64,000 nt of DNA from positions 105,283 to 169,282 of the forward strand of contig WHUX01000116.1 in NCBI GenBank assembly GCA_015179025.1, given 5' to 3'. The DNA comes from Terfezia claveryi (lineage: Eukaryota; Ascomycota; Pezizomycetes; Pezizales; Pezizaceae). Positions 2,888 through 60,528 of this stretch are shown piece after piece (the stretch's first letter is position 1; every line of letters begins with the position of its first letter). The translations under genes and the position numbers were made by a program. The notes under the pieces are model-generated. The model was not told the origin of the DNA, did not search any database, and saw only the letters and a list, made by a program, of their open reading frames with translations.

Positions 2888-4771
2888 TACCTGGTTTGGT
2901 TGGCACAACACCATACTACCATTCGCAACCTAGTAGTGATCAGCCACTGTCTTATGACCATCCCTGCAACCCCCCGGCAGCAACACCCCCAGCCACATCT
3001 CGTAATATATTATGACTCTGCTGATTCCGGCTATATTCACCACTATGGAAGCAAATACGCTCTACAACATGGTTACCCTCACATCCCGCCATATTCAACT
3101 CAATACCCCCATACCACCTCCCCCAGCATGACCCTTGTCATACCCGACCCCCCCCCCCAAACCCCCCCCAATAGGGCGAGTATCATGCAGGTGAACTCAT
3201 CACCACGAGAAGGCCCTTTACCTAACATCTATATTCATGATTAAACAGCTTCTAGGGCAGCAAGCAACAATATATGCAAACAGTTAGCTATCATTACAAG
3301 CCGCTCACTGCTCCAAAAATGAGCTATTTTCAGAATTAGGTATATTTCCATGATTTATGCTATTATAACCCCCATATACCTCAATCCGCTGCAATACTCT
3401 CTTCCCAGGCATTCTCAGCCACCGCCGAAAGGTCTCCAATAGCTCTGAGAGTTCTAATACCTTCCCTTTGGGCTTCATGGGTTGCTTCCATCTAGGAGGT
3501 TTTGTCACCCTCCCCTGGGGCCATTTCAACCCCCTCACAGCAACCAACAGCAACCCCACACTCACGAGTCCAACTCAGCGTCGACTTAGCTGCTCTAAAT
3601 TCCTCAACACCTAACCTAGCGCTTTGTCTAGTCTCGTGCCGTTCTAGTGCTATACTTAGCGTCCAACCTAGCGTCTACCAATGTAGTAACCAGACTTAGC
3701 GTCCAACCTAGTGCCCAACCTAGCGTGCTCTCAACACCTGCTCTGGTACATATCGGTAATGCTTGGGCTGATCTGGTAGCTATAAAGGGTGTAAAGGGTT
3801 TAAAATGCCTCGAGAAAGGCCAGCATACCGCCATGGCTAATGCGACTACCTGGAGCCCAAAATGGGGGGGTATTGTAGCTCCAGAGCGATTAGCAACCTC
3901 TCCGGGGCGGCTGAGGATGCTCTAGAGGAGTGTTGAACTCGGGGGATTGAGGAGGGCATAGATGGGGTGGATTTGGCTGATTGAATAAGAGCTCTCGGAA
4001 CTTACTCAGTGTGCTGAGTTGAGATCCTGCAATTTGTAATTTTGCACGCTCCGTGCCAACCAAACTAGCACGCTCCACCTTCAGCACTAATTTACCATGG
4101 ATATAGGTAAAGGTCTCCTCGCGGTTTTGGGCCTATTCGTACAATATAAGGCCAACAGAGGGAGTAGAGGCAGGGGTATTAATGGAGGGTGAAGATTCTT
4201 GAAGGGGGGGTATTAGAGCTCCCAGAGCTATTGGAGACCTTTCGGCGGGGGCTGAGAATGCTTGGGAAGAGAGTATTGCAGCGGATTGAGGTATATGGGG
4301 GTTATAATAGCATAAATCATGGAAATATACCTAATTCTGAAAATAGCTCATTTTTGGAGCGGTGAGCGGCTTGTAATGATAGCTGACTGTTTGCATATAT
4401 TGTTGCTTGCTGCCCTAGAAGCTGTTTAATCATGAATATAGATGTTAGGTAAAGGGCCCTCTCGTGGTCATGAGTTCACCCGCATGATACTGGCCCTATT
4501 GGGGGGGGTTCGGGGGGAGGGGTCGGGTATGACAACGGTCATGCTGGGGGAGGTGGTATGGGGGTATTGAGTTGAATATGGCGGGATGTGAGGGTAACCA
4601 TGTTGTAGAGCGTATTTGCTTCCATAGTTGTGAATATAGCCGGAATCAGCAGAGTCATAATATATTACGAGATGTGGCTGGGGGTGTTGCTGCTGGGGGG
4701 TTGCAGGGATGGTCATAAGACAGTGGCTGATCACTACTAGGTTGCGAATGGTACCTAGTGCAACCAGACTA
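2888..4771. mobile_element. foldback element with ~555-bp inverted arms
   Basis: Bases about 2918-3463 are the near-perfect inverse of about 4205-4757. The small mirror ORFs in the two arms encode almost the same peptide (..YYDSADSGYI..), which confirms the inversion. The outer ends carry the micro-element terminus: CTGGTTTGGTTGGCAC on the left and GTGCAACCAGACTA on the right, so this is probably a large member of the TAGTCTGG family. The centre (3500-4200) is non-coding and has short repeats of CAACCTAGCGT and CTTAGCGTC. The flanking 9-mers match only partly, so a target duplication is not proven. Confidence 0.6.
4757..4771 (+). repeat. TAGTCTGG-family terminus
   Basis: AGTGCAACCAGACTA forms the right end of the foldback element. 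Another isolated and more diverged terminus is at 5985-5999 (GCAGTGCAATCAGACTA-like). Confidence 0.55.
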
Positions 4772-13700: not shown

Positions 13701-14370
13701 AAGCTCGGACCCTGAGCTCCCTGTAAAGGAAACTGAAAAAGGCCTCCGTGGCCTCAAAAACCCCTCTACGAGGGTCTGATCGAGACTACAAAAACCTCCT
13801 CTCCCTTTTTCTTCCATTCTGGCTTGGCCAATTCCGCCCATCTGGACTTGTTTCTCCAGAAGGCTAGGTCTTGGCTCATGTGAACCATAAGCACTCAAAC
13901 GGGATATGCTGTACGTCCTCTAGGAGGTGTCCGCATTCCCATATCGTGTTGTCTGTTTGCCGATGCGGCGCAGCCAGCTCTTCTGTGGCCCTCGTTTATG
14001 TATCTCGCGTCCCGGCAGCTTATCTTGCCTTGTCCCTGAATCCACTCGGGTGGCTGCTCATGGTCCTCCTAATGGGACAGCATAGGAGTAACAAGTATTT
14101 TTTTTTTTTTAAAAAAAAAAGAGAAAAAGAATTCTGTGGACCTGGATCGACCCAAGTGTAAGCCAAGAGTGCCCTCCGTCCACATTCACATTCTCCACAT
14201 GCTGAAACCTTTTTCGTTCCTGGCACTCTTCCGGAAGGCTTTAGAGGCCTCTCTCCGGTGTTCGGAAACAGGGACGAGTTGGGCGACATCAGAGTCGGGC
14301 GTGATGGCATGGACAACTAGGGGCGAGGTAGACCAGTCAGTAGTATCGATAGGTATATTCGTTAACAACT
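13700..14370 (-). pseudogene. decayed Tad1-like LINE ORF2 C-terminus
   Basis: On the minus strand, CECGRRALLAYTWVDPGPQ matches the conserved LINE segment WNRHALSAYTWLRTNRGPQ seen intact at 39.7 kb. The expected 'HHIGKAES..CGHPTE' region continues in decayed form beyond an insertion, and a 'RRPFSVSF' segment corresponds to the 'EAFFxLLYREL' end. Stops and frameshifts show it is dead. It is interrupted by the LINE tail at 13,989-14,131. Confidence 0.55.
13989..14131 (+). mobile_element. 143-bp LINE 3'-tail insertion in older LINE
   Basis: The sequence CTGAATCCACTCGGGTGGCT, then a GGGACAGCATAGGAGTA block and an A-rich tail, matches the 3' UTR end of the LINE at about 40,310-40,372. It is flanked by TTCTGTGG at 13,981-13,988 and 14,132-14,139, which looks like a target-site duplication. 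It lies in the opposite orientation to the older LINE copy that it splits. Confidence 0.6.
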
Positions 14371-19168: not shown

Positions 19169-19950
19169 CGCATCCGTAAGAAGCGAGCAAATATCGCTGG
19201 CAAGGCGTCGGCGTTTCTCAGCATTGCTGGATTTGTAGACTTCGTCGGAGCCTGGAGTGGGGGGAGCTGGGGAGTTGGCCCTCGAGAGGCAAAGCGCAAG
19301 CTTTACGCTTGATGGGAGTGTAATAACAGGGAGTAGTGGGGGGTAGGGTGTTGGAGCGACGGCGGGGAGGTGGAGTCAATTTGTGTTGGGTCAAGGGATT
19401 AGATGCAGTGTGGGTAGTGCTTTGGGGGGGCACTTGACACTATGTCAGCTCAGGACACGCCTATTGGAGAGGAGAGACTCACTTTGGATTAAATAAATTC
19501 TGGAATTATTGCTTGTTGCCTTGGGGGTAGATTGACTGGGAAATTCATTCTGTAAAAACTAATGTGTTGTGGTAGAAGTAAACGCCCTGTCTACAGGTCG
19601 TGTGCTGGGTCCCTAGTTGCTGCCAAGACGTAGGGCGGCCGGTGAGAGTATTTCCCACAACATCTAGCAAGGGTAACAAAAGATACGGGAATATCTGTTA
19701 GGCAGCGGAAGTGGTATTAGCGAGGCAGCGCGGGGTGTGAAGGGTGCAGTGCGGATCTGAAGCAATATGTCTACTATAGCGGATTCTACAGTAATACGCG
19801 GAGTGGACAGTAGAGCACAGAGTTGCACTTAGGGTAATAGTATACGATGTGGGTGAAGACTTGCTTCATTGTTAACGCAAATACAAGTGTCCGGAGCGTT
19901 TGTCTATATCCATGGAAGATTCAGGGTAAGACAATGTGACAGGGATATAT

Positions 19951-23830: not shown

Positions 23831-24894
23831 AGGGCAACACAACTGGTGGTTTGGGTGCCTGCACGATTCAGGAATCGTGGATACTAGTGATTCGGATATC
23901 ACGATTGGGCAATCTTGACAATTGGAGGATCGGATGGGTGCACGATTCAGCGATCAGTCTAAATGTAGCACTAATCCTTGGGGCATTCTGGATTTCAATT
24001 ATATCAATCACCACTTGCACAATTATGGGCAAAGGCTATTTAAATAACAAAAGACACAAAAAGCAGACCGAGACGAGAAAAAAATCTTAAAATTCACCAA
24101 AGCAAACAGAACAGAACAGAACACTACAAAGGAAATTCCAACTTCATACAAAGGAAACTAAACCACTCAAGATCAACCCAATCCCATGAATCAAAACCCC
24201 TGTCCATCATCCAGCAACCTTCCTTTTTCATTTTGCTTTTTGGTCCTTTCCCCCATGGTAGAAAACACCTACAGAACTCGAGGTTCTGGCCTTCTACCCT
24301 TCCTTCCCTTGTGTATTCCTATCCTTTTGTTCGTACCTGATCCTGTCAGGAGTAGAAAGACCCACCCTTGCACTGCAACAACCACGGCAGGCGGACAAAG
24401 TCCCCATACCTATATGAATGCTACACCGACCGTTTGACCCGAGTCAGTTTGTGCGAAGGGCATTGTACTCTCAGAAACCATCTTCTTTGATAGTTTTAGA
24501 GACGCTCTGCACAGCCATCTCAAGGTTAGACTACTCGCAAAGAGTCAGTCGCCTTGTGATGTTTTTCCTATGCCTGAACATAGAAGTCTGTGGGGTTATC
24601 TAAAGGAAGGTCAACTGGTCCTGCCACACTGCAATTCAATATCCCCTTACCGAAGCAAGAATCAATAGAACGTGTCCCAAAGAGACAACCCAAACCCGAC
24701 TACCCGACCGAAATCGAAAGCCTATAGGAGTGAGCCACCGACGCTTTCTGACGGCAGTCGGCTGTATGGGGATGCTTCAGCTAAAACACACCAGACATTG
24801 CTGGGCACTTTACACATGCGTGTGGAGATGCATGGTATGTCGCTACCGGAGTGACTGGTAGGACGGTGCAGGGAAGGGAACAGCCTGCAGAGCT

Positions 24895-25370
24895 TTCGAA
24901 CTCACAAGGAACTATAAACAATATGGAGATGTTAGCTTATGATACTTGTTTGAAAGGAAATAGACAGAGTATATTATATTGCTTACGATGTGGTAATGCC
25001 TTTGAACCTGGGGTTGTCACAACCCCCGAATCATTTCGTTGTCAATTCTTTCCCAGGGACTATATATAAATGGAGACGTTAACTTATAGTACTTGCAGGA
25101 GAAAGAGCATATGATATTGCTTACGTTTTGGTAATGGCTTTGAGCTTAGGGTTGTCGCAACCCAACGAATCTTTCGGCTTTCTATGCTTTCCCAGGGACT
25201 ATATCCCTGTAAAAATTTCAAATCCACAAAGAACTATATATAATATGGAGATATTAAGTTATGATACTTGTTTGGAAGGAGAAAGAGTATATTAGATTGC
25301 TTACGTTGTGGTAATGCATTTGAGCCTGGGGTTGTCACAACCCCCAAATTATTTCTTTCGCTGGAACTAC
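24895..25370 (-). repeat. three imperfect ~140-180-bp repeats with GGGGTTGTCACAACCCC
   Basis: Three units share TATGGAGAT(G/A)TTA, TTATGATACTTGTTTG, TTGCTTACG and a palindromic GGGGTTGTCACAACCCC or variant. Diverged counterparts occupy 37,330-37,690 in the other arm. The repeats lie 3' of the unknown gene. Confidence 0.6.
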
Positions 25371-25530
25371 ATATAAACCCTGTAGTTGCCTTTTTCAAAA
25401 CTTTTTGGGGGGTTCTAGTATAGAGAAGAAGGTTTAGTATCTGCACATTGAAAAGCATGAGGATAATAGCACTTACTTCTCCATGCTGAAAGGCATACCC
25501 ACAAACACCCGAAAAGACCTCGCGGTCAAT

Positions 25531-28182
25531 TCAAATGTCATTGGCCCTTCCCATCTTGAAATACAAGACAGTGTAACACACCATCAGTCTTTCTCGATCG
25601 GTCGGACCCAGCAAACCAGCATCGATCTCCAGGATCGTCCTTGCCGCCAACTCCCTCAGAAAAGCAAGCCTTTCTGGGGTCGTCGTTGGGTCGACTATTC
25701 CTTGACCCTTCGCCAACCAATTTACCTCCCTTAGCTTCTATCATTCAGAAGTCAGCAAATTTTATTTATTTAAATTTCAGTTGTTTAAATTTCAGTCATT
25801 AATGTAGTAGAGTACTTACTAGTACGCGACCGGGAGTAGCTGGCCCTGCTTGGGAGACAGGGCTATTGGCAGCTGCGGCTGGCTCTATCAGTGCAGGTGT
25901 ACCACCATTTTCACCGGTGCTTTCGCAACTAGGTTGCTCCGGCTGGCTCGCGGTGTTGGTAGACGGTCCTGGTGCTGTTAATGTTGGTGGGTTGCCCGAG
26001 GTGGAGTCTCCCTCACCATTTCCAGACGTCGGAACGGCAGTCTGTACTTTAGCTTGGGGTGGAACCGAAGTGTTTGTAGTCGGAAGGAGAGTCTTCACAA
26101 TGGCAGACTCTGCAACTTCCTTTCCAGGCACTTTCTTTCCTCCCACTCTCAGGATGATCTTCCTCACGGTTACAGTCTTCGGGGTCGAGCTGGGACTCTG
26201 AGGACCTTTGTTAACCTCTTGACCTGCCGTCGATACAGCCTTAACCTGTGAACCTGAGCTGGAGCCTCCCTCACCATTTCCAGACGTCTGAACGGCAGTC
26301 TGTACTTTAGCTTGGGGTGGAACCGAAGTGCTTGTAGTTGGAAGGAGAGTCTTCGCAACAGTAGACTCTGCAACTTCCTTTCCGGGCACTTTCTTTCCTC
26401 CCAATCTCAGTGTGATCTTTCCCACGGTTGTCGCAGTCTTCGGAGTCGCGCTGGGAGCATGAGGGCCTTTGTTAACCTCTGCTGGAGTTTGACATACCGT
26501 CGACACAGCCGTTTTCAGTGCAGGCCCTGAACCTGAAGACACCGATTGTCCCGCAATGACACCGGAACTGGCTGGCTTTCGTATCCTGTCCGTGATACAG
26601 TTTAGTTTGGGACCCAAAGACAACGCACTAAAGATCCGAACCAGGAATCCTTCTTCTTCTAAGCTGAGGCTAGAAGCCGTAGGTTCCCAATCCATCTCAT
26701 CAGTGGAACTGCCATCATCAATAAGGTCCGGAGCGTCCTGCATCAAGACCTCTCTATCAACCGGAGCGACTACAGTACTAGTCGGCTCGAAATCCATCTC
26801 ATCCTCAGGACTTCTGTCAGAATCATCCACCTGCTCTCCTTGCTGAACCTTAAGTCCAAACATGGAGCCGAGCTTGCAGGCAGCAGACAAGGCCTCGGTG
26901 ACCAATGGGGCTGCCATCCACGAATGTGTCAGGCGCGATGCCAAAGGAGCACTCTTTCTCGTGTGCTGAACACCACGAAGTGCCGGACTTTTCTTCCCAA
27001 CGGTGATTTTACTATACGGCGAACCAGAGACCGCATTTCCAGCATACCTCTGTGTTTTGGCCCCAGGTTGTCCTTCCTCGCACAAAAGCAAAGCAATTGG
27101 CTCAGTAGGAGTTCCAGTGGTTTCTACACATTTCTTCTGCACAGTGCTGATGGCCTCCAATTCTTGTGAGACAGGCATGCTATGGCTTGCAGAGGCCTGC
27201 TCGGTTGAGTTACCCATCGATACAACGGACCTGTCGCGATATAGAAGATGAATATACCGGCCGGGTCGAAAGGGATTTATTGAAGAAGGCTTGCTCGGAC
27301 ATGCAGAGGCCTTCTGTATTGCCACCACTTGGCTTGCCATATTGGGTACCGATGTGGGCAAAGCCAGTGAACAAAGCATGGAGTCTGGGACCACCATTAC
27401 CCAAGGAGCTGGAAAGGTACCAGGCATGTCAGATGAAACAGAGGCCCTTCCCTGATTGACTTGTTCCAGACATCCAGAAAGCCAGGTCACAATGGAGCTC
27501 ACATAACTCCAAGCAGACGCTCTTGGGTGACGAGCAATTACAGCAACGACCAGAAGCCAGCTGATGACACAGCTTACAACTCTGCCCGCGCCCATGCAAA
27601 CGTGACCAGCAACTCCAGCAACAGCCAGGAACCTGCTGACAACGCAGCTAACAGCCCTGCCCGTGCCTTCAATGAAGCCTGCACCAAAGAAACGAGAACG
27701 AGGAGGACAGGAGACACCATCCAACGATGCAAGGGTATCGTTTGCCAATCCAGAGGAAAGGAAATTGAGAACCCGGTAGACAACGAAGATGAGAACCAGA
27801 AGGCAGACAGTGCTGATGGACACCTCCAGAATGTTTCTCAGAACGTCGGAAATGCACAAACAGACAAGGGGAAGAGAAGGGCAAGCCACTTCAACAACCA
27901 GAAGGACTTGTCGTTCTGAGTGCCCGGCTGAACTTTCTACATTACTAGTTAGTTTTGATATGTTATGAGGTTGAGGACTTGCAGAAAGGAAGTGTAACTT
28001 ACGTGTTCTTGTTCGTGGTGGGCTGGGTAAGTCGGTGCGACCCTACATGAGTTGAGAGCCGACTCTGTTTGATGAGGGTCAGTATGCTGCACGTGATTGA
28101 GTTTAAAGCACAGCAAAGGAAAGTAGGTACCTCTCGCATCGGGCCAAACGCTGAACAGTATCGTATTCCTGTTGAGTGCCAT
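25531..28182 (-). pseudogene. frameshifted copy of 4-exon gene of unknown function
   Basis: The exon structure mirrors the right-arm gene: 28,182-28,131, 28,064-28,003, 27,936-25,820 and 25,737-25,531, with conserved splice sites. Relative to the right copy, one C is missing in the CCCC run of exon 3 near 27,858, which shifts the frame and gives an early stop (..LLFPLSVCAFPTF stop). Downstream the old frame stays open for about 690 codons, including the two EVNKGP..GGKKVPGKEV repeats and the MDFEPT and MDWEPT motifs. The loss is therefore recent, or expression continues from an internal start. The product would resemble the 803-residue right-arm protein. Confidence 0.75.
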
Positions 28183-28519
28183 AGCGGCGATCCTATCTCC
28201 TATTAGGTGAAAACAAGAAATTAGTAAAACAGCTTTCCTGGCAAACTTGACTCAGGACAAACACTACAGGTGCAAACTTACTATCCTTTGGGCTTAAATG
28301 CCTCTCACAAGGATATGAAGTTGTGGCTGAAAGGTATGCAGGTGAAGATTGCATTGTAGCAGAAATTTGTCGCACTGTACACGCTGAGCTAACTCGAAGC
28401 AATGTAAGTAATTTCTGCCTGGGTGGGGAAGAAAGAGGGAAAGGAAGGAAGGAAGGAAGAGGGGGGAGGGAGAGATATAGCAACGGTAGGGTGGGTACCT
28501 TGGGGGGAGATTGTTATCT

Positions 28520-28545
28520 ATGGAGGGTGTTGTGCCAACCAGACT
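28520..28545 (+). mobile_element. 26-bp TAGTCTGG-family micro-insertion
   Basis: TGGAGGGTGTTGTGCCAACC then AGACTA is flanked by GATTGTTATCTA on both sides (12-bp direct repeat). The homologous site in the right arm (about 34,050, minus strand) has one copy of GATTGTTATCTA and no insert, which shows directly that the insert is an addition. Confidence 0.8.
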
Positions 28546-28628
28546 AGATTGTTATCTACCTATCGACCACTCAAACAGGTTCGCCCCACAATGCATTCTC
28601 GTGCCCAGGCCGATTTACCCTGTGGAGG

Positions 28629-28646
28629 GGTAGTGCAACCAGACTA
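28629..28646 (+). mobile_element. 28-bp TAGTCTGG-family micro-insertion (core shown)
   Basis: The insert runs from about 28,619 (CCTGTGGAGGGG) to 28,646 (..TAGTGCAACCAGACTA). It is flanked by CGATTTA and CGATTTC. The right-arm counterpart (about 33,990, minus strand) reads CCGATTTATTTAC without the insert. This is the second filled/empty site pair within the window. Confidence 0.7.
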
Positions 28647-29014
28647 CGATTTCTACATCGCAGTCTTGCAATATTTTTTTTTTTTTTTTTTTAAAAACTC
28701 AGTACTCCTATGCAGCCCCGTTAGGGGGGCTATGAGGAGCCACGCGGAAACCCGGTGGATTCAAGGGAGAGGCAAGTTAATCTGCCAACCCCACGCAAAC
28801 TTAAATACACGAAATTGCAGAAGGACCCATGCTGTCATTAACGGACCTAGCCGATGACCCGGAGGCCTGACTGGTGCTCGACTGCGAAATGATGAACTTG
28901 AAACTAGAAGCTGAGATAAACTGGAAATAGTGAAGCGTAAGGAAACTCGTGAAAATTCGTAAATCTCTCTCTTCATCTCCAACTCCCGACGGCAACGGCA
29001 TTCCCGACAGCTCA

Positions 29015-29412
29015 CTACATAAGCTCACGGTATAGGAGGCTGAAGAAGGCCTCCGTAGCTTCGTATCTCTCTTCTCCTTCCCCTTCTATCCTCCAATCCA
29101 GTTCGTCGAGCTCCTCCCAGCTCCTCCTCCCCCCCAATAAACCGCTGCGTATCCGGTTGAGGCGTGGGCAGTCGAAGACGATATGTTCTCCGGTCTCAGT
29201 GGGGTGACCACATGTGCATGCTGCTGATTCCGCCTTGCCGATATGGTGAAGCCAGCTCCGTTGCGGGCCTCTGTTAGTTCTTAGCCAAGTGTAGGCTGAC
29301 AGGGCTTGTCGATTCCACTCCACTCTTCTTACCCCGAAGCCCGCCTTTGTTCTTGCTTCTTTTCGTCTCGCTTTAGAGGCTGCGCGTAGCCCTCCTTCTG
29401 TTGTTGTCTGTC
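29015..29412 (-). pseudogene. Tad1-like LINE ORF2 C-terminal domain, truncated
   Basis: The frame holds the conserved post-RNase H segment: SAYTWLRTNRGPQRSW, HHIGKAESAACTCGHPTETG with a CxC..H..C zinc-binding pattern, EHIVFDCPRL, SWEELDELDW and EAFFSLLYRELM to the stop. It is nearly identical to the LINE at 39.7-40.0 kb. The upstream RNase H and reverse transcriptase are missing at the junction near 29,412. Confidence 0.75.
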
Positions 29413-30294
29413 ACAAACGGGAGGGGTCTTCCAGCAGGACATGTCCGTTGAGTAGTGCGGTGAGGGCCTTTACCGCGCCCCAACGGGTGCATGTTCTTGT
29501 TGGTGTGTTAAGTCCAGCGTGCATTGCTGCATGTGGTCAACATCGTATTTGCGGCCTAAGGCACGATTTGCCTTTACCATTTTCATGGTCCCCTCGGAGG
29601 TATTAGCAGCGGATGACAAGGGCTCAGCTGATGCTTCACTGCCCCATGGAGCTGTAAGAGCCTGCCCGTTACGGGTGAGTGGTACGCCATTGATGAAGTC
29701 AGCCAACCCACGTCGGGATTACTATCTGCTTATCCGCCGGACTGTGTACTTTGCACCTTGAGCAGGAGGAATACCGAAGCCCCAACTTCACCATGGCCTC
29801 CCTCATCAGCTCTCAATTTCGCTATGGGACATACTCACAGCGTTACCCGTTTTCCATAACTTATACTGGACCCGACCCAGTTACTGCCAATCTTGTTGCC
29901 AACAGTAGAGAACTATGCGGTCACAACTCCGCTATAGTATTTGCCTTTGCTCCTTAAGCCTCCGCAGGTGAACTGCGTACGCATTGCTGCGTTCATTGAG
30001 ACCGACACCCGCATCCGTCCTGTCGGACCGTTACGCTGCAGTTAACCCGGAACCCCGAGCTCTTGTATGCAATGTCAGGGAACACGCGTAATGGAATTCA
30101 TTACTCTAATGGTGCTCTGAACCGTACGTAACGCCTCGCCTCAAGCTACATTTCTCAGCTCTTCGCGATGCAGAAGGTGGTACATACAAACTCCCACCAT
30201 CCACCGGCGGTGTCTCGCCACCGGTCTCTATAGGTATATTACTGTGAACACTACTGCTCAATGTGAACGATTTGCAGTGGACACTATACCAAAG
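29413..30294 (-). other. 5' part of LINE-derived insert, origin unclear
   Basis: One frame (29,706-29,470) begins MADFINGVPLTRNGQALTAP, and an overlapping frame reads TRWGAVKALTALLNGHVLLE. I do not recognise a domain. Because it lies inside the same 14-bp target duplication as the LINE 3' end, it was inserted in the same event. Confidence 0.5.
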
Positions 30295-30605
30295 GCAGTC
30301 TTGCAATAGCCCCAGACTAGCAGTAGCCTTCGTGACCTCGCAACTTCCCCCAGAGTCAACAGACTGGTTAGTACGAGGCTAGTCTCGCAATACTCTCGTG
30401 CCTCTTGAAATCGCGAGATTATGTACTATGGAGGTCAGGGCGGGTGTCAAAGTCGACCCTGCCTAACGAGCAAAATGTTCTCACCGATTCACCAATCTGC
30501 CGCCCAATTCACCAATTGTCCCCCCCCAAAAAAAAAAGAAGCGGCATAGAGATACAGCTTGCCGATCTCCTGACTGAACAAACACGACGCCAGCATCTCA
30601 TGGGT

Positions 30606-30651
30606 TAGCCTGGTTGAACTACCTCTGGCAGGGTTCGTGCTAACCAGACTA
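30606..30651. mobile_element. 46-bp micro-element with both TIRs and 9-bp TSD
   Basis: The element starts TAGCCTGGTTGAACTACC and ends CGTGCTAACCAGACTA, so both ends are family termini in inverted orientation. CTCATGGGT is found immediately on each side (30,597-30,605 and 30,652-30,660), an exact 9-bp target-site duplication. Confidence 0.85.
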
Positions 30652-30796
30652 CTCATGGGTGCGCTCCCACATTGGCATGCAAGGCACAGAGAACGCCGAT
30701 CTCCTAGTAGCCTTCGCTTGGCTCTACCTAGGGTCAGGTGAGCCGCAAGGCCTGAATCGCCACGGAAGGAGGGATCAGGCAAACCGCGAACTGGGT

Positions 30797-30913
30797 ACAG
30801 GCGCATCTCGGCATACCCGGTAATGAACGAGCGGACGCCCTGGCAAAAGCGGGTGCAGAGAACCTATACCCGAAAGACCCCCTTATTACGGAGGGAGGTC
30901 TGAAGCAGGAATA
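30797..30913 (+). pseudogene. LINE RNase H fragment
   Basis: The frame reads VQAHLGIPGNERADALAKAG then LYPKDPLITEGGLKQE and a stop. It corresponds to WVRGHLGIPGNEKADQFA at 39.5 kb, which carries the last catalytic Asp of the RNase H fold. It is an isolated fragment. Confidence 0.65.
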
Positions 30914-31640
30914 GAGGAGAAGGCGGAAGGTAGAGAGGAGGGTTGTTGGGACAGGAGGGGCGGAGCGGTGAGGTGGGAGAGAAAGGTGCGGATCAACTAT
31001 GTCCTTTGCAGGGCTGGGAAAGGGAACTGGTGAGCAAAACTGGATGTTGATCCAACATGCTAAACTTGTGGCCGACATGTGGAGACAGGCAGGCAGGCAC
31101 GTAGCCCTGGTGTACCCACGAGGAGGAAATCGGGAGGAGGTGGAATAATTGGGAGGAGATGGATGAGCGGTGCAGGTGGGTGAAGAAGATGAAGGATGGG
31201 GAGGAGAAGTCCAACTTGGACCTGATAGAGATGTTTTTCTGCCTAGACATGAGTGGGAGTGGTTGGAGCGAAGGCATGAGTGAAGATGTCTGTTTTCCTT
31301 TGTTTTCAGAGGAGGGCATGGCGGCGGAGGTTTCATTTATGGCTGGGGTGAAGGCCGGCAAGTAGGCGTGGGGGAGGCGGCGGGGCTTATTTTTGTTTTC
31401 CTTGGGTTCGGGAGACAGGACATGCATATAGCCCCTTGTTCCGTGGGTGTACCGGGTCTTTTGAGTGAGGGGATGGGGCCGTCTTACAGCCTTAGGTTCC
31501 ACAGACGTGCAGACTCAAACAAAAAAAAGGCAAGCCTCGAAGGAGCACAGAAGTGAAGCACGGACAATCCTAGCCTCGTACAAACCAGTCTGGTGTCTAT
31601 GGGGGGAGTTGCGAGGTCACAAACAATTCAAAAATATTAA
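30914..31640. other. purine-rich stretch without a supported gene
   Basis: The plus strand is GA-rich from about 30,900 to 31,380. The long minus-strand Pro/Ser frames across it are a composition effect and show no domain. Confidence 0.4.
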
Positions 31641-31960
31641 CCTGGGTACGAGGTCCAGGTTTCGGTGTGCGGAGACCAGAATCGAACACCCCAGGCCCTC
31701 TCCGCCTACACATGCCTACAGACGAATCGGGGACCCAAGAAAGAATTGCCCCGGCAAATTAGAGAACGCCAGTCGCCAATGCGGTCACCATACCCAGGAC
31801 GTTCACCACCTTGTCTTCTCTTGTCCTGACCTCAACGATCAGAGGCCGGCTCTAGGCAGCATTAAGGACTGGGAGGATTTAGACCGCTTCATCTGCCATC
31901 TGGATTCAAGGCGAGGACGTAGAGCGCTGGGGACGCCGTGAATGTCTTTTTCGGGTTCAT
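31640..31960 (+). pseudogene. LINE ORF2 C-terminal fragment
   Basis: The frame reads THAYRRIGDPRKNCPGKLEN, CGHHTQDVHHLVFSCPDL, then GSIKDWEDLDRF and a stop. It is equivalent to the CGHPTETGEHIVFDCPRL..SWEELD region of the intact-looking LINE copy but belongs to a different subfamily. It lacks RNase H and reverse transcriptase. Confidence 0.65.
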
Positions 31961-32009
31961 ATCGTCAACTCGGGGGAGAGGCAGCGCCCAATTTTCCTTA
32001 TCACAGGGT

Positions 32010-32491
32010 AGTCTGGTTGCACGACCCTCCCACAGGAGTATAGGAATAGGAATAGCTACAGGCGAGCGGAGAGATCCAAGTGTCCACTGAAGGAAGGTAC
32101 GAATAGAGCGAGTTGGTCACTGGAGTTGGTCACTGGAGTGAGGAATATGTAGAGAAGAAGATGTTTGTATACACAGTGAGTGCATGTATTGTATTGAGTG
32201 AAGAAGTGATACTTCGTTATCTCGAACAAGTAGGAACATGAACGAGATATATATACATGTATGAGCGTACATCTAAAGCATGAAGAAGAATGAGAAGGAG
32301 AAGCACATGTCCGTTGCAAGCCGTATAGCTAGGCATGAAGCAACGAGATGAGCGCGAGCAAGGTGTGAAGTACGCAACATGATGTGCAAGCCGCTGACGG
32401 CTACATATGGTATAGGTAGCAAGGCATGGGCGGAATGAACGGAATGTACTACATTCATTCTAACAAGGAGGAGGGTCGTGCAACCAGACTA
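32010..32491. mobile_element. 482-bp TAGTCTGG-family MITE
   Basis: The left end TAGTCTGGTTGCACGACCCT is the inverse of the right end AGGGTCGTGCAACCAGACTA, and the TIR continues for several more bases. Flanking 9-mers are ATCACAGGG (32,001-32,009) and ATCACCAGG (32,492-32,500), matching at 7 of 9. The interior is non-coding and includes a duplicated GTTGGTCACTGGAGT. Its 28-bp TIR equals the sequence of the solo micro-insertions. Confidence 0.75.
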
Positions 32492-32731
32492 ATCACCAGG
32501 TACTTGAGTTCGTTGCACCTTTTTTTTCTTTTTTTTTCCCCCCTAATACGGTACATATATATAAGCATATAGCTAAATTAGCCCATGTATGAACGTGCCC
32601 CAGTAAAATATTCCCAACCTTCTAAGTTCGGATTGATATTAACTAAATCAGTAACGGCCCGAGAATATTACCATATTTGGACCATGCCAAGAGTGATAGG
32701 TTCCAATCCCGGCAACTGGTGGTTCATCCTG

Positions 32732-32860
32732 ACAATTGCTAGTTCGGGTGGCTGCACGATTCCGCAGTCAGCCTAAATAGACATACTCACCCCTTGGGGC
32801 ATTCTGAATATCATTTATATCAATTACCACTTGCACAATTACGGTGCGAAATATATAAAC
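32732..32860 (+). repeat. third partial copy of the duplication's outer end
   Basis: Shared words with 23,850-24,010 and with the inverse of 38,560-38,700 are AACTGGTGGTTC, GGGTGGCTGCACGATTC, TTGGGGCATTCTG, TTTATATCAATTACCACTTG and CACAATTA. Only this end is present. The gene is not. Confidence 0.65.
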
Positions 32861-32918
32861 CCTCTTGACTATCAATATGATACCAACCGCACAATATCTT
32901 CTGCACTATCAACATGTT

Positions 32919-32940
32919 CAGTCTGGTTGGCACCAGACTA
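32919..32940. mobile_element. 22-bp palindromic micro-element
   Basis: CAGTCTGGTTGG and then ACCAGACTA (joined by CC-free GC overlap) are the two family ends fused with almost no interior. AACATGT flanks both sides (32,911-32,917 and 32,941-32,947). Confidence 0.65.
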
Positions 32941-32964
32941 AACATGTCAGAAAACTCCCAATCC

Positions 32965-33055
32965 TAATCTGGTTGGCACAAGGCCTAATCCCACCTACGG
33001 AGGGGTTGTGCAACCAGACTAAATCCCACTAGTCTCGATCGAGACTAAATCCCAC
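32965..33055. mobile_element. stacked micro-insertions at target AATCCCAC
   Basis: AATCCCAC occurs at 32,987-32,994, 33,022-33,029 and 33,048-33,055. Between the first two is a 27-bp unit (CTACGGAGGGGTTGTGCAAC then CAGACTA). Between the second and third is an 18-bp perfect palindrome, TAGTCTCGATCGAGACTA. A further terminus, TAATCTGGTTGGCACAAGGC, lies just upstream at 32,965. Confidence 0.75.
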
Positions 33056-33561
33056 ACAAGTTCGAGCTTTTGCTTGGATACAATCACGAGAACATCGATG
33101 GACTACAATCCTTCTCGATATTCCCGAATTTACTTCCTCGTGATCGCAAACGCCAAACTCCTGGTCTACCTCAGAAGGATCGCACTCACTGCTCACTCTA
33201 TTAGGCTTACATGGTCTAAGGATAATAACTGCTGATAGCTCGACTTCAGAGATAGCAGTTCGTGGGTCTGAGAGATTAGGGGGCAAGTAGTTGGCAGTCG
33301 ATAGTCGATCGGCTGGTAAAACGTTTTAAACTCAGTGCTCGTGTGCAGTGTTGTTTCTACTAGGGTCGATGATGCTGGCGAGTGAGCATGTTGGAAAAGT
33401 ATGAGAATGGAACACAGGGCTATGTGAGATCGTGGGCAGCAGGGCAATGTGAAATAGATGTGTGTTTTTATTTGTAGTCCTGGGGATCAGACATCTCTAG
33501 AAATCCCGTTTCGTGCCCAGGCCTAATTGCTTGTCCTTTTGGATCATAATGAGAGGGTAGC

Positions 33562-33786
33562 CTCGAACCCGACCGCTCCTAGGGAGGATGAGAGGGGTAG
33601 GCGACCAGACCACATCGGAATAGATGAGTAATTACAGGTGACGGGGCATTGTTGGACGATACACTGTTATATTTGTGTATTGGTCGACCGAATCACCTTT
33701 CGCACCCCATAGAAGATTGGCCAATGGGCGAGATTAGTGAATCGGTCAGAACACTACCACCTGCCCTAGGAGCGGTCGGGTTCGAG
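33562..33786. repeat. 225-bp inverted-repeat unit
   Basis: CTCGAACCCGACCGCTCCTA at 33,562 is inverted at 33,764-33,786. The right end directly abuts the micro-insertion cluster. The unit spans the outer end of the right arm of the large duplication. Confidence 0.5.
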
Positions 33787-33896
33787 ACTATCACAGGAGG
33801 AGGGTCGTGCAACCAGACTAGAGACTATACCACCTGTTAGTCTGGTTGCACTACCCCTCGCAGAGGACCACCTGTAGTCTGGTTGGATACCACCTG
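33784..33896. mobile_element. cluster of three stacked micro-insertions
   Basis: A 29-bp unit (33,792-33,820, CACAGGAGGAGGGTCGTGCA then ACCAGACTA) is flanked by GAGACTAT on both sides. A 29-bp unit in the opposite orientation (33,838-33,866, starting TAGTCTGGTTGCACTACC) is flanked by ACCACCTGT on both sides. A 13-14-bp unit (TAGTCTGGTTGGAT) follows and is again bounded by ACCACCTG. The left arm of the inverted duplication has no such units at the homologous place near 30,480. Confidence 0.8.
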
Positions 33897-34448
33897 GTCT
33901 TTTGCTCGTTAGACTGTCGGCTTTGTCACCCACCCTGACCTCCACAGTATATCTCGCAAGAGGCAGAAGATTAGTGCCTTGTAAATAAATCGGTCTCGGC
34001 AGGAGAACACATTGTAGGGCAAACCCGTTTGAGTGGTCTGATAGATAGATAACAATCTACCCCCAAAGGAACCCAACCTACCGTTGCTCTACACCTTCCT
34101 CCCTCCCTCCCTCCTTCCTTTCTTCTTTTCTTCCTTTCTTCCCTACATCCCAGACAGAAATTGACTTACATTGCTTCGAGTTACCTCAGCGTGTACAGTG
34201 TGACAAATTTCTGCTCTAATGCAATCTTCATCTTCATACCTTTCAATCTCAACTTCATATCCTTATCCCATGCATTTAAGCCCAAAGGATAGTAAGTTTG
34301 CACCTGGTCTGTTTGTACTAGTCAAGTTCCCTCGTCTTTTTTGCTCATCCTCACCTGTTCCTCATCTCCACTCCCTCATAGGTATAGAATAGGGAAGGCT
34401 GTTATACTAATATCTTGTTTTCACCTAATAGGAGATAGGGTCGCCGCT

Positions 34449-37075
34449 ATGGCACCCAACAGGAATACGACACTGTTCAGTGTTTGGCCCGAGGCGAGAG
34501 GTACATAATTTCCTTTCCTGTGCTTTAGACAACCGAATCACGTGCAGCTTACTGACATCATCAAACAGAGTCGGCTCTCAACTCAGGTAGGGTCGCACCG
34601 ACTTACCCAGCCCACCACGAACAAGGAAACGTAAGTTACACTTCCTTTTCCTTTTGCATGTCACACTTCTTTTGTGCAAGTCGTCAACTCCAAAACATCA
34701 AAACTAACTAGTAATGTAGAAAGCTCTACCGCACACTCAGAACGACAAGTCCTTCTGGTTGTTGAAGTGGCTTGCCCTTCTCTTCCCCCTTGTCTGTTTG
34801 TGCATTTCCGACGTTCTGAGAAACATTCTGGAGGTGTCCATCAGCACTGTCTGCCTTCTGGTTCTCATCTTCGTTGTCTACCGGGTTGTCAACTTCCTTT
34901 CCTCCGGATTGGTAAGCGATACCCTTGCATCGTTGGATGGTGTCTCTCGTCCTCCTCGTTCTCGTTTCTTTGGTGCAGGCTTCATTGAAGGCACGGGCAG
35001 GGCTGTTAGCTGCGTTGTCAGCAGGTTCCTGGCTGTTGCTGGAGTTGCTGGTCACGTTTGCATGGGCGCGGGCAGAGTTGTAAGCTGTGTCATCAGCTGG
35101 CTTCTGGTCGTTGCTATAATTGCTCGTCACCCAAGAGCGTCTGCTTGGAGTTATGTGAGCTCCATTGTGACCTGGCTTTCTGGATGTCTGGAACAAGTCA
35201 ATCAGGGAAGGGCCTCTGTTTCATCTGACATGCCTGGTACCTTTCCAGCTCCTTGGGTAATGGTGGTCCCAGACTCCATGCTTTGTTCACTGGCTTCGCC
35301 AATATCGGTACCCAATATGGCAAGCCAAGTGGTGGCAATACAGAAGGCCTCTGCATGTCCGAGCAAGCCTTCTTCAATAAATCCCTTTCGACCCGGCCGG
35401 TATATTCATCTTCTATATCGCGACAGGTCCGTTGTATCGATGGGTAACTCAACCGAGCAGGCCTCTGCAAGCCATAGCATGCCTGTCTCACAAGAATTGG
35501 AGGCTGTCAGAACTTTGCAGAAGTCATGCGTGGAAGCCGCTGGAACTCCTACTGAGCCAATTGCTTTGCTTTTGTGTGAGGAAGGACAACCTGGGGTCAA
35601 AACACATAGGTATGCTGGGAATGCGGTCTCTGGTTCACCATATACAATCACCGTTGGAAGGAAAAGTCTGGCACTTCGTGGTGTTCAGCAAACGAGAAAG
35701 AGTGCTCCTTTGGCATCGCACCTGACACATTCGTGGATGGCAGCCCCATTGGTCACCAAGGCCTTGTCTGCTGCCTGCAAGCTCGGCTCCATGTTTGGAC
35801 TTAAGGTTCAGCAAGGAGAGCAGGTGGATGATTCTAACAGAAGTCCTGAAGATGAGATGGATTTCGAGCCGACTAGTACTGTAGTCGCTCCGGTTGATAG
35901 AGAGGTCTTGATGCAGGACGCTCCGGACCTCATTGATGATGACAGTTCCACTGGTGAGATGGATTGGGAACCTACGGCTTCTAGCCTCAGCTTAGAAGAA
36001 GAAGGATTCCTGGTTCGGATCTTTAGCGCATTGTCTTTGGGTCCAAAACTAAACTGTATCGCGGACAGGGTACGAAAGCCAGCCAGTTCCGGTGTCATTG
36101 CGGAACAGAAGGCTGTGACGACGGTAAGTCAAGCTCCAGCAGAGGTTAACAAAGGTCCTCATGCTTCCAGCGCGACCCCGAAGACTGCGACCGTGGCAAA
36201 GATCACACCGAGATTGGGAGGAAAGAAAGTGCCCGGAAAGGAGGTTGCAGGGTCAGCCATTGCGAAGACTCTCCTTCCGACTACTAGCACTTCGGTTCCA
36301 CCCCAAGCCGAAGTACAGACTGCTGTTCAGACGTCTGGAAATGGTGAGGGAGGCTCCAGCTCAGGTTCACAGGTTAAGGCTGTGTCGACGGAAAGGCAGG
36401 CTCCAGTAGAGGTTAACAATGGTCCTCATACTCCCAGCGTGACCCCGAAGACTGCGACGACCGTGAGAAAGATCATACTGAAAGTGGGAGGAAAGAAAGT
36501 GCCCGGAAAGGAAGTTGCAGAGTCTGCCATTGCGAAGACTCTCCTTCCGACTACTAGCACTTCGGTTCCACCCCAAGCCGAAGTACAGACTGCCGTTCCG
36601 AGGTCTGGAAATGGTGAGGGAGACTCCACCTCAGGAAACCTGCCAACACTGACAGCACCAGGACCGTCTACCAACACCGCGAGTCAGCCAAAGCAACCTA
36701 GTTGCGAAAGCACCGGTGAAAATGGTGGTTCACCTGCAGTGATACAGCCAGCTGCAGCTGCCAATAGCCCTGTCCCCCGAGCAGGGCCAGCTACTCCCGG
36801 TCGCGTATTAGTAAGTACCCTACTGAATGAAATTTAATAACTGAAATTTGCTGACTTTTGAATGGTAGAAGCTAAGGGAGGTAAATTGGTTGGCGAAGGG
36901 TCAAGGAATAGTCGACCCAACGACGACCGCAGAGAGGCTTGCTTTTCTGAGGGAGTTGGCGGCAAGGACGATCCTTGAGATCGATGCTGGTTTGCTGGGC
37001 CCGACCGATCGAGAAAGACTGATGGTGTGTTACACTGTCTTGTATTTCAAGATGGGAAGGGCCAATGACATTTGA
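34449..37075 (+). CDS. membrane-anchored protein of unknown function (803 aa, 4 exons)
   Basis: Exons 34,449-34,500, 34,569-34,630, 34,720-36,810 and 36,869-37,075 join in frame from ATG (MAPNRNTTLFSVWPEAR..) to a TGA (..YFKMGRANDI). The same exons and splice sites occur in the inverted copy, which supports the model. Residues about 54-95 are strongly hydrophobic (WLALLFPLVCLCISDVL, STVCLLVLIFVVYRV), and a second hydrophobic stretch lies at about 130-172. The rest is low-complexity and polar. Acidic motifs MDFEPT (about 418) and MDWEPT (about 452) are followed by a 90-residue duplication, each unit with EVN(K/N)GPH, KI, GGKKVPGKEV (about 538 and 628) and LLPTTSTSVPPQA. The last exon (AERLAFLRELAARTILEIDA..) is a helical segment. 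No family is recognised. It is the better-preserved of two copies. Confidence 0.7.
34501..34568 (+). other. intron 1 of 803-aa gene
   Basis: The donor is GTACATAATT, a CTGACAT branch-like site is present and the acceptor is AAACAG. It splits a codon after its first base. The homologous intron in the left arm starts GTACCTACTT. Confidence 0.65.
34631..34719 (+). other. intron 2 of 803-aa gene
   Basis: The donor is GTAAGTTACA, the branch site ACTAAC and the acceptor AATGTAG. It is phase 0 and conserved in both arms. Confidence 0.75.
36811..36868 (+). other. intron 3 of 803-aa gene
   Basis: The donor is GTAAGTACCC, a CTGACTT branch-like site is present and the acceptor is ATGGTAG. This 58-bp phase 0 intron corresponds to an 82-bp intron in the left arm (25,819-25,738), which has an extra AATTTAAAT-type segment. 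Confidence 0.8.
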
Positions 37076-37079
37076 ATTG

Positions 37080-38960
37080 ACCGCGAGGTCTTTTCGGGTG
37101 TGTTTGTTGGTATCCTTTTTAGCTTCAAAAAGTACGTAATGTTATCATCATTCTTTTCATTGTGCGGATACTTTTTTATTATGTGGATACTTTTCATTGT
37201 GTGGATACTAAACCTTCTCCTCTATACTAGAACCCCCCAAAAAGATTTAGAAAGAAAAGGAAAAAGTAAGGCGTCAGGACCAAGACCGTAAGTAATTCGG
37301 GATGCCTTCCATTATGAGTACAACAAGCTAACATCTCCAGTTAAATATAGTCCAAGAAAATAAAATAAACACATTCCGGGGTTGTGTCAACCTTAGGCCC
37401 AAAGGCATTACCACAACGTAGGCAATATTAATATATGCTTTCTCCTTTCAACCAAGTATTATGAGTTAACATCTCTATATTATTTAGAGTTATTTGAGCG
37501 TTCCAAAGCTAAACAGGGATATAGTCCCTGGAAAAGGAATGAAAACGAGAGGTTCGGGGGTTGCGACAACCCTACATTGATAGGCCTTACAACGAGGTAA
37601 GCAATATAATATACTCTTTCTCCTTTCAAACAAGTATCATGAGCTAACATCCATATTATTTATAGTTCCTTGTGAGTTTGAAAGCTTTACAGGCTGTTCC
37701 CTTCCCTGCACTGTCCTACTAGTCACTCCGGTAGCGACATACCATGCATCTCCACACGCATGTGTAAAGTGCCCAGAAATGTCTGGTGTGTTTTAGCTGA
37801 AGAAATCCCCATACAGCCGACTGCCGTCAGAAAGCGTCGGTGGCTCACTCCTATAGGCTTTCGATTTCGGTCGGGTAGTCGGGTTTGGGTTGTCTCTTTG
37901 GGACACGTTCTATTGATTCTTGCTTCGGTAAGGGGATATTGAATTGCAGTGTGGCAGGACCAGTTGACCTTCCTTTAGATAACCCCACAGACTTCTATGT
38001 TCAGGCATAGGAAAAACATCACAAGGCGACTGACTCTTTGCGAGTAGTCCAACCTTGAGATGGCTGTGCAGAGCGTCTCTAAAACTATCAAAGAAGATGG
38101 TTTCTGAGAGTACAATGCCCTTCGCACAAACTGACTCGGGTCAAACGGTCAGTGTAGCATTCATATAGGTATGGGGACTTTGTCCGCCTGCCGTGGTTGT
38201 TGCAGTGCAAGGGTGGGTTTTTCTACTCCTGACAGGATCAGGTACGAACAAAAGGATAGGAATACACAAGGGAAGGAAGGGTAGAAGGCCAGAACCTCGA
38301 GTTCTGTAGGTGTTTTCTACCATGGGGGAAAGGACCAAAAAGCGAAATGAAAAAGGAATGAGGAATGTCTTGGGCTAGTGGAAAGGGCTTTTGCCCTATG
38401 GGTTTGGGATGATGGAGTGGTTTAGTTTCCTTTGTCTGAAGTTGTGGTTTCCTCTGTTCTGTTCTGTTCTATTTGCATTTTTGGTTTTTTTTTTAATTTT
38501 TAGACCCGTTTGCTTCTCGTTTTGATCTGGTTTTTGAGTGTTTTTTTTGCCTTTGCACCATGGTGCAGGTGGGGATGGATATAAATGAAATCCAGAATGC
38601 CCCAAAGGGTATTTGTATATTTGGACTGATTGCCATACCCGAATCATTAATCTCCACGATTTCTGCGTCTGCAGGCGCCCGAACCACCAGTTGCTTGGAT
38701 TGGGCCACGGGATTTGATATGGGCATCCTAATAGCGTGCATTCAGCAGCGCATGCTCATATTGGCTCATTCTCATTCGGAATACATTAGAACCTCGTTAC
38801 ATGCATTTCCTTTAAAAGAATAAATTCGCTATAAGGCCAGATGTTGACCGCGCTCCTATAACATAAGAATAAAAACTCTATAGGTATATTCTTTAGATTT
38901 TCCGTAATATTCTTATGAAAAATGGACCCTAGCAGGGGAATTGAAGCGCTATCTGGGGTT
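37080..38960. other. 3' flank of the unknown gene, no other gene seen
   Basis: This stretch mirrors 23,850-25,530. It contains diverged copies of the GGGGTTGTC repeat block and short ORFs conserved only because the arms are homologous. An AT-rich unique segment (38,820-38,960) leads into the LINE. Confidence 0.4.
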
Positions 38961-48839: not shown

Positions 48840-49270
48840 ATAATTTGGTATATATATCCGCCTACGATATTTTAGCTTTCCATTATCCTCTTCATATTCG
48901 CCTAGTGAGATGTCCTTAGATCGCTTCTCTCCTTATTGCAGCTTAACTAATATCTTCCTTAGCAGTGGATCAACTTCAAAACCTCTATTAAACAAGTCCT
49001 CTAGTCCTAGCTCTTCTACTGTCGCATTGATTGTTAAATTGTGAGGTTTGAGAATGACTTGATTTTGAAACCTTATACATTCATCTCCTTCCTTTGGAAG
49101 GTCTCCTGACCTTCTTGTTAATGCATCTGGTTTTCCTCCTACTTTACCTGGACGGTAAACTATCTTGAAGTTGAAGCGAGAGAGAAATTCTGACTATCGA
49201 GCTTGCCGGCGGTTGAGGAGCTTTGTTGACATAAAGTATTTAAGATTTTTGTGATCTGAGAGTACTTTAA

Positions 49271-59549: not shown

Positions 59550-60417
59550 TTCCGGTCGTCCAGAAGTCTTGAAGAATTTCGGTGGTGATATCCTTGGCGT
59601 TTACCCAGGAATCATATTTAGGAGAGTATCCTAGCCATCTGACCTTATATTGTCTTTCTCCAGTTCAAGAAGCTGTTCTAAATTCTAATATCTTTTCAAC
59701 TTCATAACGATCTTCTTGAATTGGTCCTAGTTCCTGAGATTGTCTATGAGGGAACTGGGTAGGATCGTTTTTATAGTAGGGTTTAAGTTTGCTGATATGA
59801 AAAGTATTATATATGAGGTGGAGGTCAGGTTGACTAGATAGGTCTAGGCTATAGTTATTGCGTTTCTGATTACTAGAAATAATGGGAAATGGACCTAGCC
59901 ATTTTGGTTTGAGTTTGGGTGAGACGTTCGATAGGTTGATATTTTCTGAGGAAAGCATAACTTGTCGTCCGACTGAAAATTTGGCTGTATTGGGTAGTCG
60001 TTTGTTCGCTTGAGATGCTTGAGTCTTGTTGGCATCATATAGGTTTTTAGACGTTACCTCATGACGTTCATTTGCAGGTACATATGCATTTATGGGGTAT
60101 GGAAGTATCGATACGCCAAGATGTGCATTAAATCCAAATAGTGTGGAAAAGGGACTATTCTGTCTAGCAGCATTATACCTAGAGTTAAGTTTCAACTGTA
60201 TCTCTGGTAGTTTCTGTAGCCAATCAAATCCTTCGATTTTACAGGCTCTTGCTACTTGTAGAATTTCTTTGTTCACAATTTCCGATTGTCCGTCTGCACG
60301 TGGATGATATGCGGTGGACAGTTCCAACTTGATTCCTTTATTCCTAGCCCAATCTTGAAAGTGCGTTGACATAAAAAGAGTGTCGCAGTCAAAAACAATA
60401 CAGAAAGGGTATCCCAT
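59550..60417 (-). pseudogene. Gypsy D integrase C-terminal half and chromodomain
   Basis: The frame continues the core with Asp (IVFDCDTLF) and Glu (YHPRADGQSEIVNKEILQ), then a GPY-like region (KPKWLGPFPIISSNQ, DLHLIYNTFHISKLKPYY). The chromodomain start, DRYEVEKILEFRTAS, is cut by a TGA at 59,667-59,665. The same frame resumes with QYKVRWLGYSPKYDSW and TEILQDFW, so the stop splits an otherwise complete chromodomain. A frameshift region at 60,418-60,528 separates it from the upstream pol frame. Confidence 0.85.
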
Positions 60418-60528
60418 AGTCGGGACTACATGAGTATCAAAGGTAGCAGTACATTGTTCTGCTGTGAAATTATCTGAGACAGGAATAAGAAACTTGAATC
60501 TTGATTGTCTGTCGACAATCGTCTAAAG

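Follow-up and report, generated by a model that had tools for sequence, protein, structure and literature searches.

Here we describe, in a 64,000-bp window of the Terfezia claveryi genome (positions 105,283-169,282 of contig WHUX01000116.1, C20 here) and in the 72.56-Mb, 794-contig assembly that contains it, a large set of micro-inserts that carry the transposon-end word TAGTCTGG or a relative of it and lie between short direct repeats. A sequence-only reading of the window had pointed out such inserts, and the observation is real, genome-wide and unusual. By kind, the inserts are transposon end remnants; what sets them apart is their number, their one-endedness and the re-use of their targets. 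We tentatively favor, with a probability of roughly 45%, the reading in which a single group of inverted-repeat DNA transposons, with the heads TAGTCTGG and TAGTCTCG, left them as scars; the transposase of this group would have a 9-bp stagger and would cut deep inside the element or protect its ends, the breaks being closed by end joining.

The word TAGTCTGG occurs 11,091 times genome-wide (5,536 and 5,555 by strand) against 2,497 times (1,247 and 1,250) for the same word reversed, an excess of about 8,600, and it occurs 17 times in the window, against a mean of 2.3 and a maximum of 7 in 100 shuffles. The second head, TAGTCTCG, is found at 3,566 places against 1,717 for its reversal and behaves like TAGTCTGG, with a flank repeat at 11 of 26 sampled sites; its units (e.g. 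TAGTCTCGATCAGACCCTCGTAGAGG) have TAGTCT and an inner CCTC-loop-GAGG in common with part of the main group and differ from it in the middle. Two subfamilies were followed separately, one marked by the 20-mer TAGTCTGGTTGCACTACCCC (221 genome copies) and one by the 31-mer TAGTCTGGTTGGCACAAGCCTCTCGTAGAGA (78 exact genome copies), and the reversed control was 0 for both. The window gave no match to Rfam, and a search of viral contigs with two 20-mers, made with a viral source in mind, gave none either.

The direct repeats were quantified on two sets of TAGTCTGG sites. The first comprised 122 sites from the window, loci L001-L008 and loci L036-L095, that is, places of contig C1 taken as listed, as far as about 944 kb; it skipped places within facing-pair loci sampled earlier, three of which are true pairs, sites of the same context were counted once and sites too close to the end of a stretch were dropped. 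At 44 of the 122 sites a copy of the 9-bp flank (8/9 or better) stood within 80 bp, exact in 27, compared with 1 of 25 sites for six control words. When this rate, minus that of the control, is applied to all 11,091 sites, it extrapolates to about 3,800 recognizable inserts in the genome. In the second set of 114 distinct sites, which included 15 loci chosen for having two facing ends, the 9 bases preceding TAGTCTGG recurred (at least 8/9) in 47 sites within 40 bp, in 52 within 60 bp and in 54 within 480 bp, against 1.7, 1.9 and 8.7 with shuffled flanks; the excess thus stops near 60 bp, and flanking duplications, whose absence from genome-wide copies would have spoken against an insertion, are plainly there. 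The duplication is 9 bp long, as had been proposed from the window: among the 44 flank repeats the exact run was 9 in 20, 10-12 in 7 and shorter in 17. A flank repeat of at least 7/9 was found at 38 of 48 sampled TAGTCTGGTTGCACTACCCC sites, and under register-free scoring an exact 9-mer common to both flanks was found at 24/48 TAGTCTGGTTGCACTACCCC and 22/37 TAGTCTGGTTGGCACAAGCCTCTCGTAGAGA sites, with permuted controls of 0.40 and 0.10, respectively.

Two further lines of evidence do not start from the flanks of the word. In a motif-blind search for exact 9-mers repeated 8-70 bp apart, TAGTCT was the top-ranked insert border (50 of 493), in DNA mostly chosen for containing TAGTCTGG. Furthermore, an empty paralogous site exists in the window: in the inverted right arm the insert of 28,518-28,546 is missing, and the flank that is duplicated around it is present once. 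No further empty paralogues were found in the sampled DNA. The two arms belong to a large inverted repeat (24,578-38,000; arms of about 4 kb, 92% identical), and the insert-rich segment of 28.5-33.9 kb lies between them. No target consensus was seen in 116 single-end sites, at no more than 0.10 bit per position, and a sequence-defined target hot spot was rejected on that ground. These comparisons make it extremely improbable that TAGTCTGG is a functional or conserved host word with coincidental flank repeats: such an explanation could call on the background of about 2,500 reversed words and on the 78 of 122 sites without a flank copy, and it is opposed by the flank copies themselves (52/114 versus 1.9), by the first rank of TAGTCT among repeat borders and by the empty paralogous site.

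Most inserts consist of a single transposon end, of which about 10-15 or 22-34 bp is kept. In the 122-site set we counted 39 single ends versus 5 pairs, the pairs being undercounted there because the facing-pair loci sampled earlier were skipped. Insert lengths in this set fell into two groups, 8-18 bp (mode 15, TAGTCTGGTTGGCAC) and 25-36 bp, with one insert of 46 bp. One junction of the insert is exact and the other is ragged. At the outer edge the left copy of the duplication adjoins TAGTCT in 23/24 cases for TAGTCTGGTTGCACTACCCC and in 20/22 for TAGTCTGGTTGGCACAAGCCTCTCGTAGAGA; the inner edge ranges across 22-41 bp among members of the TAGTCTGGTTGCACTACCCC subfamily, and falls at 31 bp in 14/22 members of the TAGTCTGGTTGGCACAAGCCTCTCGTAGAGA subfamily, which were selected to contain at least 31 bp and in which the length of the single end is rather constant. 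The sequence past the unit varies from copy to copy (by eye), except in amplified repeats that carry a fixed insert. One of these, the L144 repeat (C21), is a dispersed repeat with 33 further matches (34 in total), about 26 of them near-full copies, and with several fixed micro-inserts, which therefore predate the spread of the repeat.

The remaining class consists of fused pairs, so that the account of the units already put forward from the window, solo or fused transposon ends flanked by target duplications, holds, with the one paralogous empty site in its support. In the genome, 253 places have facing ends with a length of 16-46 bp, versus 8 for the reversed pattern, and 284 have them at 42-72 bp, versus 1. 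We inspected 55 facing-end loci, of which L021-L035 and L192-L211 were taken in order from the shorter list and L212-L231 were picked from the longer one: 19 were true pairs (outer duplication at least 8/9), 18 proved to be separate single ends, one or two per locus, and 18 were neither. Extrapolated from 17 of 35 consecutive places, true short pairs would make up about 120 of the 253. Together with L165 and L168, the 19 pairs form a junction set of 21 fused pairs with duplications, each of which resolves into a pair of known ends 9-31 bp in length. Their junctions showed an overlap of 1-4 bases in 16 of 21, no overlap in 1 and filler in 4, in a scoring against 22 library ends that inflates overlaps and limits end length to about 33, and 19 of 21 junctions were distinct. 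With junctions nearly all different, it is as if each pair had been made on site by end joining, which tells against the micro-transposon system suggested from the window, yet the single ends of one subfamily keep a rather constant length. Three loci (L168, L212 and L213) are full palindromes of 50-54 bp; a full palindrome as general parent was rejected, as the 78 exact 31-mers are all outside such palindromes (by eye, no mirrored match).

Besides, the same target was used repeatedly. A further nearby copy of the same 9-mer was recorded in 22 rows among 103 sites with duplications, and seven genuine multi-unit targets were recognized by eye: window positions 33,755-33,896 and 32,987-33,055, and loci L084, L117, L026, L034 and L031. 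In the first of these TACCACCTG is present four times with three units between the copies, and L084 likewise has four copies of its 9-mer and three units. Arrays of this sort are also seen in the L144 repeat and L174, and in L175 a TAGTCTCG unit is inserted at the centre of a palindrome (by eye).

How would such inserts arise as excision scars? An element would first insert and create the 9-bp duplication. At excision, one strand would be cleaved at the end of the element and the other about 15-33 nt inside, much as P transposase does at 17 nt; for the P element, a deep staggered cut 17 bp inside the 31-bp terminal inverted repeat (TIR) goes with an 8-bp duplication (PMC7776569). Alternatively, the transposase would protect about 15 or 22-34 bp inside the ends. 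The long overhangs left on the chromosome would then be sealed by end joining: a single end would result from joining one 3' overhang directly to the target copy on the far side while the second overhang was trimmed to the duplex, and a fused pair from joining both overhangs to each other. Re-insertion at the same target followed by renewed excision would produce arrays in which one 9-mer stands three or four times. Tandem insertion at one target is known for P elements. The size limit of the inserts, their exact outer and ragged inner edges, the preservation of the duplications and the diversity of the junctions are all in keeping with a cut, or with protection, some 15 or 22-34 bp into the element, combined with end joining. 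The inserts also share the features of excision footprints, namely a kept duplication, remnants of one or both ends, and joints with short overlap or filler. For the MULE Muta1, a remnant of as much as 13 bp of TIR sometimes persists after excision where duplications are absent (PMC5225508), and a possible surviving element of 483 bp lies in the window.

Several results weigh against excision scars. First, long parent elements are near absent: in the sampled DNA, facing ends 60-12,000 bp apart with flanks of at least 7/9 numbered 9, compared with 15 in the control, and the 483-bp candidate at 32,009-32,491 has flanks of only 7/9, a match level not above control overall. No inward-facing TAGTCTGG ends were found at 24 MULE, KDZ and hAT loci within about 1.5 kb on each side of the domain match. 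Second, 78 of the 122 sites lack a short-range flank copy; by our estimate the reversed-word background covers about 27 of them, leaving about 50 real-looking ends, which are either decayed or the termini of something longer. Third, the multi-unit targets mix orientations and subfamilies and call for an extra assumption. The library scoring of the junctions also counts here, since it bears on both overlap and end length; the independent sign of a size limit is that no flank-copy excess is seen past about 60 bp. Finally, the MULE Muta1 excises precisely in about 90% of cases when its duplications are present (PMC5225508).

Some of these same results would sit well with ends that were inserted as such. 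Transposase-bound stubs, freed or cut from their element, could be attached to the target through one strand transfer or through both, staggered by 9 bp, with host end joining closing the rest and no long element ever at the site. Such direct insertion would be consistent with the near absence of long elements (9 versus 15), with the rather constant unit length of the 31-mer subfamily, with pairs that join different subfamilies (e.g. L167, by eye) and with the re-use of one 9-mer at seven loci (by eye), and single-ended transposition has been described for piggyBac (PMC3952818). The piggyBac events have one end moving with its element and not 30-bp stubs; moreover, concerted insertion of two ends should yield mostly pairs, yet single ends prevail 39 to 5 and true short pairs account for only about 120 of the 253 places by extrapolation. 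The 78 sites without a flank copy, a number above background, burden direct insertion as they do the scars. We consider the direct insertion of stubs unlikely, while giving it appreciable weight, and we are similarly doubtful, if slightly less so, of the general claim that single ends of about 15 or 26-33 bp were inserted directly as units by a 9-bp-stagger transposase, thousands of times and repeatedly at one target. If true, it would describe a mobile DNA system whose cargo is one end alone.

The internal structure of the units bears on a further possibility, in which the 26-33-bp unit is itself a complete element, bounded by TAGTCT and the inner CCTC-loop-GAGG and moved in trans. The outer TAGTCT of both heads, the inner CCTC/GAGG of part of the units and the 78 exact 31-mer and 221 20-mer copies (reversed controls 0) speak for such self-sufficient micro-elements. 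In a set of 51 unique single-end units measuring 22-34 bp, stems of at least 4 near the inner end were more frequent than in shuffled units (29% versus 8%), but only 11 of the 51 end in GAGG, and folding of the whole units was not enriched (mean z 0.07), a combination too weak to make an inner hairpin a structural rule. Furthermore, the inner edge is ragged (22-41 bp) in the 20-mer subfamily (TTGCACTACCCC) and the fused-pair junctions are mostly unique. We therefore judge self-sufficient micro-elements improbable. It is more improbable still that a short RNA ending in CCAGACUA was copied into a staggered nick: an exact outer and a variable inner edge do resemble truncated retro-insertions, but the fixed 9-bp duplication and the same terminus at both borders of a pair fit a DNA transposase better, and no tail was seen in the units examined.

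The source of the ends was sought among the transposases of the genome, where domain matches comprised 21 MULE, 9 KDZ and 150 scored hAT among 182 candidates; we examined 12, 6 and 6 loci, respectively. The sequence-only reading had named a MULE-like enzyme as author of the inserts. The 9-bp duplication fits this attribution, but two intact-looking MULEs (L009 on C61 and L010 on C89), with exact 9-bp duplications (ttgttgagg and tgctaccta), have perfect 16-bp ends of the form CGGACTGACTC(A/T)GGAC, and this terminus, CGGACTGACTCWGGAC (a 16-mer with W at one place), is present only 5 times in the genome. MULEs of this kind were rejected as the direct source; a diverged MULE, or one outside the 12 examined, is possible. 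Nor was the expected autonomous element with the same ends found among the 24 loci. A 3.2-kb element at C712 between facing 31-mers was discarded, as its flanks match at 1/9, one of the two 31-mers is a separate single end flanked by a duplication of its own and the longest open frame has 128 codons. The P-type transposase domain PF21787 had no match in the genome, a result that says little because none of 14 control genomes matched either. In a MULE at L014 (C773), with a 575-codon open frame around the domain match, an identical TAGTCTGGTTGGAGAG faces outward in each half of a long inverted repeat; it looks as though a unit had been copied along with that repeat.

The inserts resemble several known systems in part. 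MULEs make duplications of 8-11 bp (PMC3310237, PMC5225508), a rule that includes the 9-bp duplications without target consensus seen here, and MULEs are present in this genome; in contrast, the inserts are 10-50 bp long without an interior, the intact MULEs of this genome have another terminus, and Muta1 excision is mostly precise. In tomato multi-TIR MULEs, a single extra TIR with distinguishable duplications has been named solo TIR (PMC3310237), but those TIRs are at least 100 bp long and lie inside full elements, whereas the present inserts are free-standing and 15-33 bp long. The hAT elements have an 8-bp duplication as a rule (PMC12730594), and 8 bp is also that of Zisupton, against a mode of 9 bp here; no inward ends were seen at the 6 of 150 scored hAT matches or the 6 of 9 KDZ matches examined. 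A deeply cut 31-bp TIR with a short duplication, as in the P element (PMC7776569), would leave single or paired TIR remnants like ours, with the differences that the duplication of the inserts is 9 bp and not 8 and that their inner edge lies near 15 or at 22-34 bp.

Among the matches listed in the open-access PMC literature, we recognized no description of such inserts. The inserts would constitute a dense natural record of the closure of transposase cuts, estimated at a few thousand events in this one genome and marked by an exact outer edge, an inner edge limited in size, short overlaps and intact duplications, and they suggest either an unusually deep staggered cut or the insertion of bare ends. 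Miniature inverted-repeat transposable elements (MITEs) are non-coding and have inverted ends, target duplications and a high copy number. The inserts resemble them in all these respects and differ in being far shorter, mostly one-ended and without a common interior past the unit (by eye). Inserts of 10-50 bp are below the usual MITE lengths, and such elements may therefore be missed in other genomes.

The inserts of the window are listed in Table 1. The four exact repeat pairs reported earlier are where they had been placed, namely CTCATGGGT at 30,597/30,652 (46-bp insert), ACCACCTGT at 33,829/33,867 (29 bp), AATCCCAC at 32,987/33,022 (27 bp) and GAGACTAT at 33,784/33,821 (29 bp), and the 18-bp and 22-bp inserts were recovered as well (33,030-33,047, a palindrome between AATCCCAC copies, and 32,919-32,940, with flanks of only 7/9). 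Six isolated termini had also been noted: five are indeed TAGTCTGG and the one at 5985 is TAGTCTGA, but none has a flank repeat above 6/9 within 75 bp. The candidate at 32,009-32,491 could represent either an element that survived or a pair of single ends that decayed.

Table 1. Micro-inserts and related sites in the window
Feature	Position	Strand	Flanks or basis
15-bp single-end unit, variant head TAGTTTGG	4053..4067	-	9/9 flank copies 4044-4052, 4068-4076
25-bp single-end unit, TAGTCTCG head	13764..13788	-	8/9 flank copies 13755-13763, 13789-13797
29-bp single-end unit (26 bp when the 12-bp repeat TAGATAACAATC is counted in full)	28518..28546	-	9/9 flanks 28509-28517, 28547-28555; inverted arm empty near 34,040
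30-bp single-end unit, imperfect duplication (AAATCG)	28617..28646	-	flanks only 6/9
46-bp fused inverted-end pair	30606..30651	.	CTCATGGGT both sides, 9/9
Candidate 483-bp long element, 22 bp identical between its ends	32009..32491	.	flanks ATCACAGGG/ATCACCAGG, 7/9
22-bp fused pair	32919..32940	.	AACATGT-like flanks, 7/9
27-bp single-end unit	32995..33021	-	AATCCCAC at 32987, 33022
18-bp palindrome, two TAGTCTCGA ends fused; same 8-9-mer target as the 32995..33021 unit	33030..33047	.	AATCCCAC at 33022, 33048
30-bp single-end unit, head TAGCCTCG	33558..33587	+	ATGAGAGGG both sides, 9/9
TAGTCTCG unit, interrupted by nested unit 33792-33820	33764..33827	-	TACCACCTG at 33755-33763, 33828-33836, 9/9
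29-bp single-end unit nested in the 33764..33827 unit	33792..33820	-	GAGACTAT at 33784, 33821
29-bp single-end unit	33838..33866	+	ACCACCTGT both sides, 9/9
14-bp single-end unit, same target as the 33838..33866 unit	33875..33888	+	ACCACCTG at 33867, 33889
Inverted-arm counterpart of the 28,518-28,546 site, without insert	34040..34069	.	arm alignment, 92% identity, 3,829 columns

Each arm of the large inverted repeat has a long open frame without a Pfam match (25,799-28,042 on the minus strand and 34,720-36,837 on the plus strand). Elsewhere in the window, a trypsin-like protein (Pfam PF13365/PF00089) is encoded at 10,727-13,064 (+) and a fungal protein kinase (PF17667) at 17,303-19,375 (-), and stretches of long terminal repeat (LTR) retrotransposon polyprotein (rve, SH3_Tf2-1, Chromo) are found at 47,532-48,932 and 59,665-60,522 (-).

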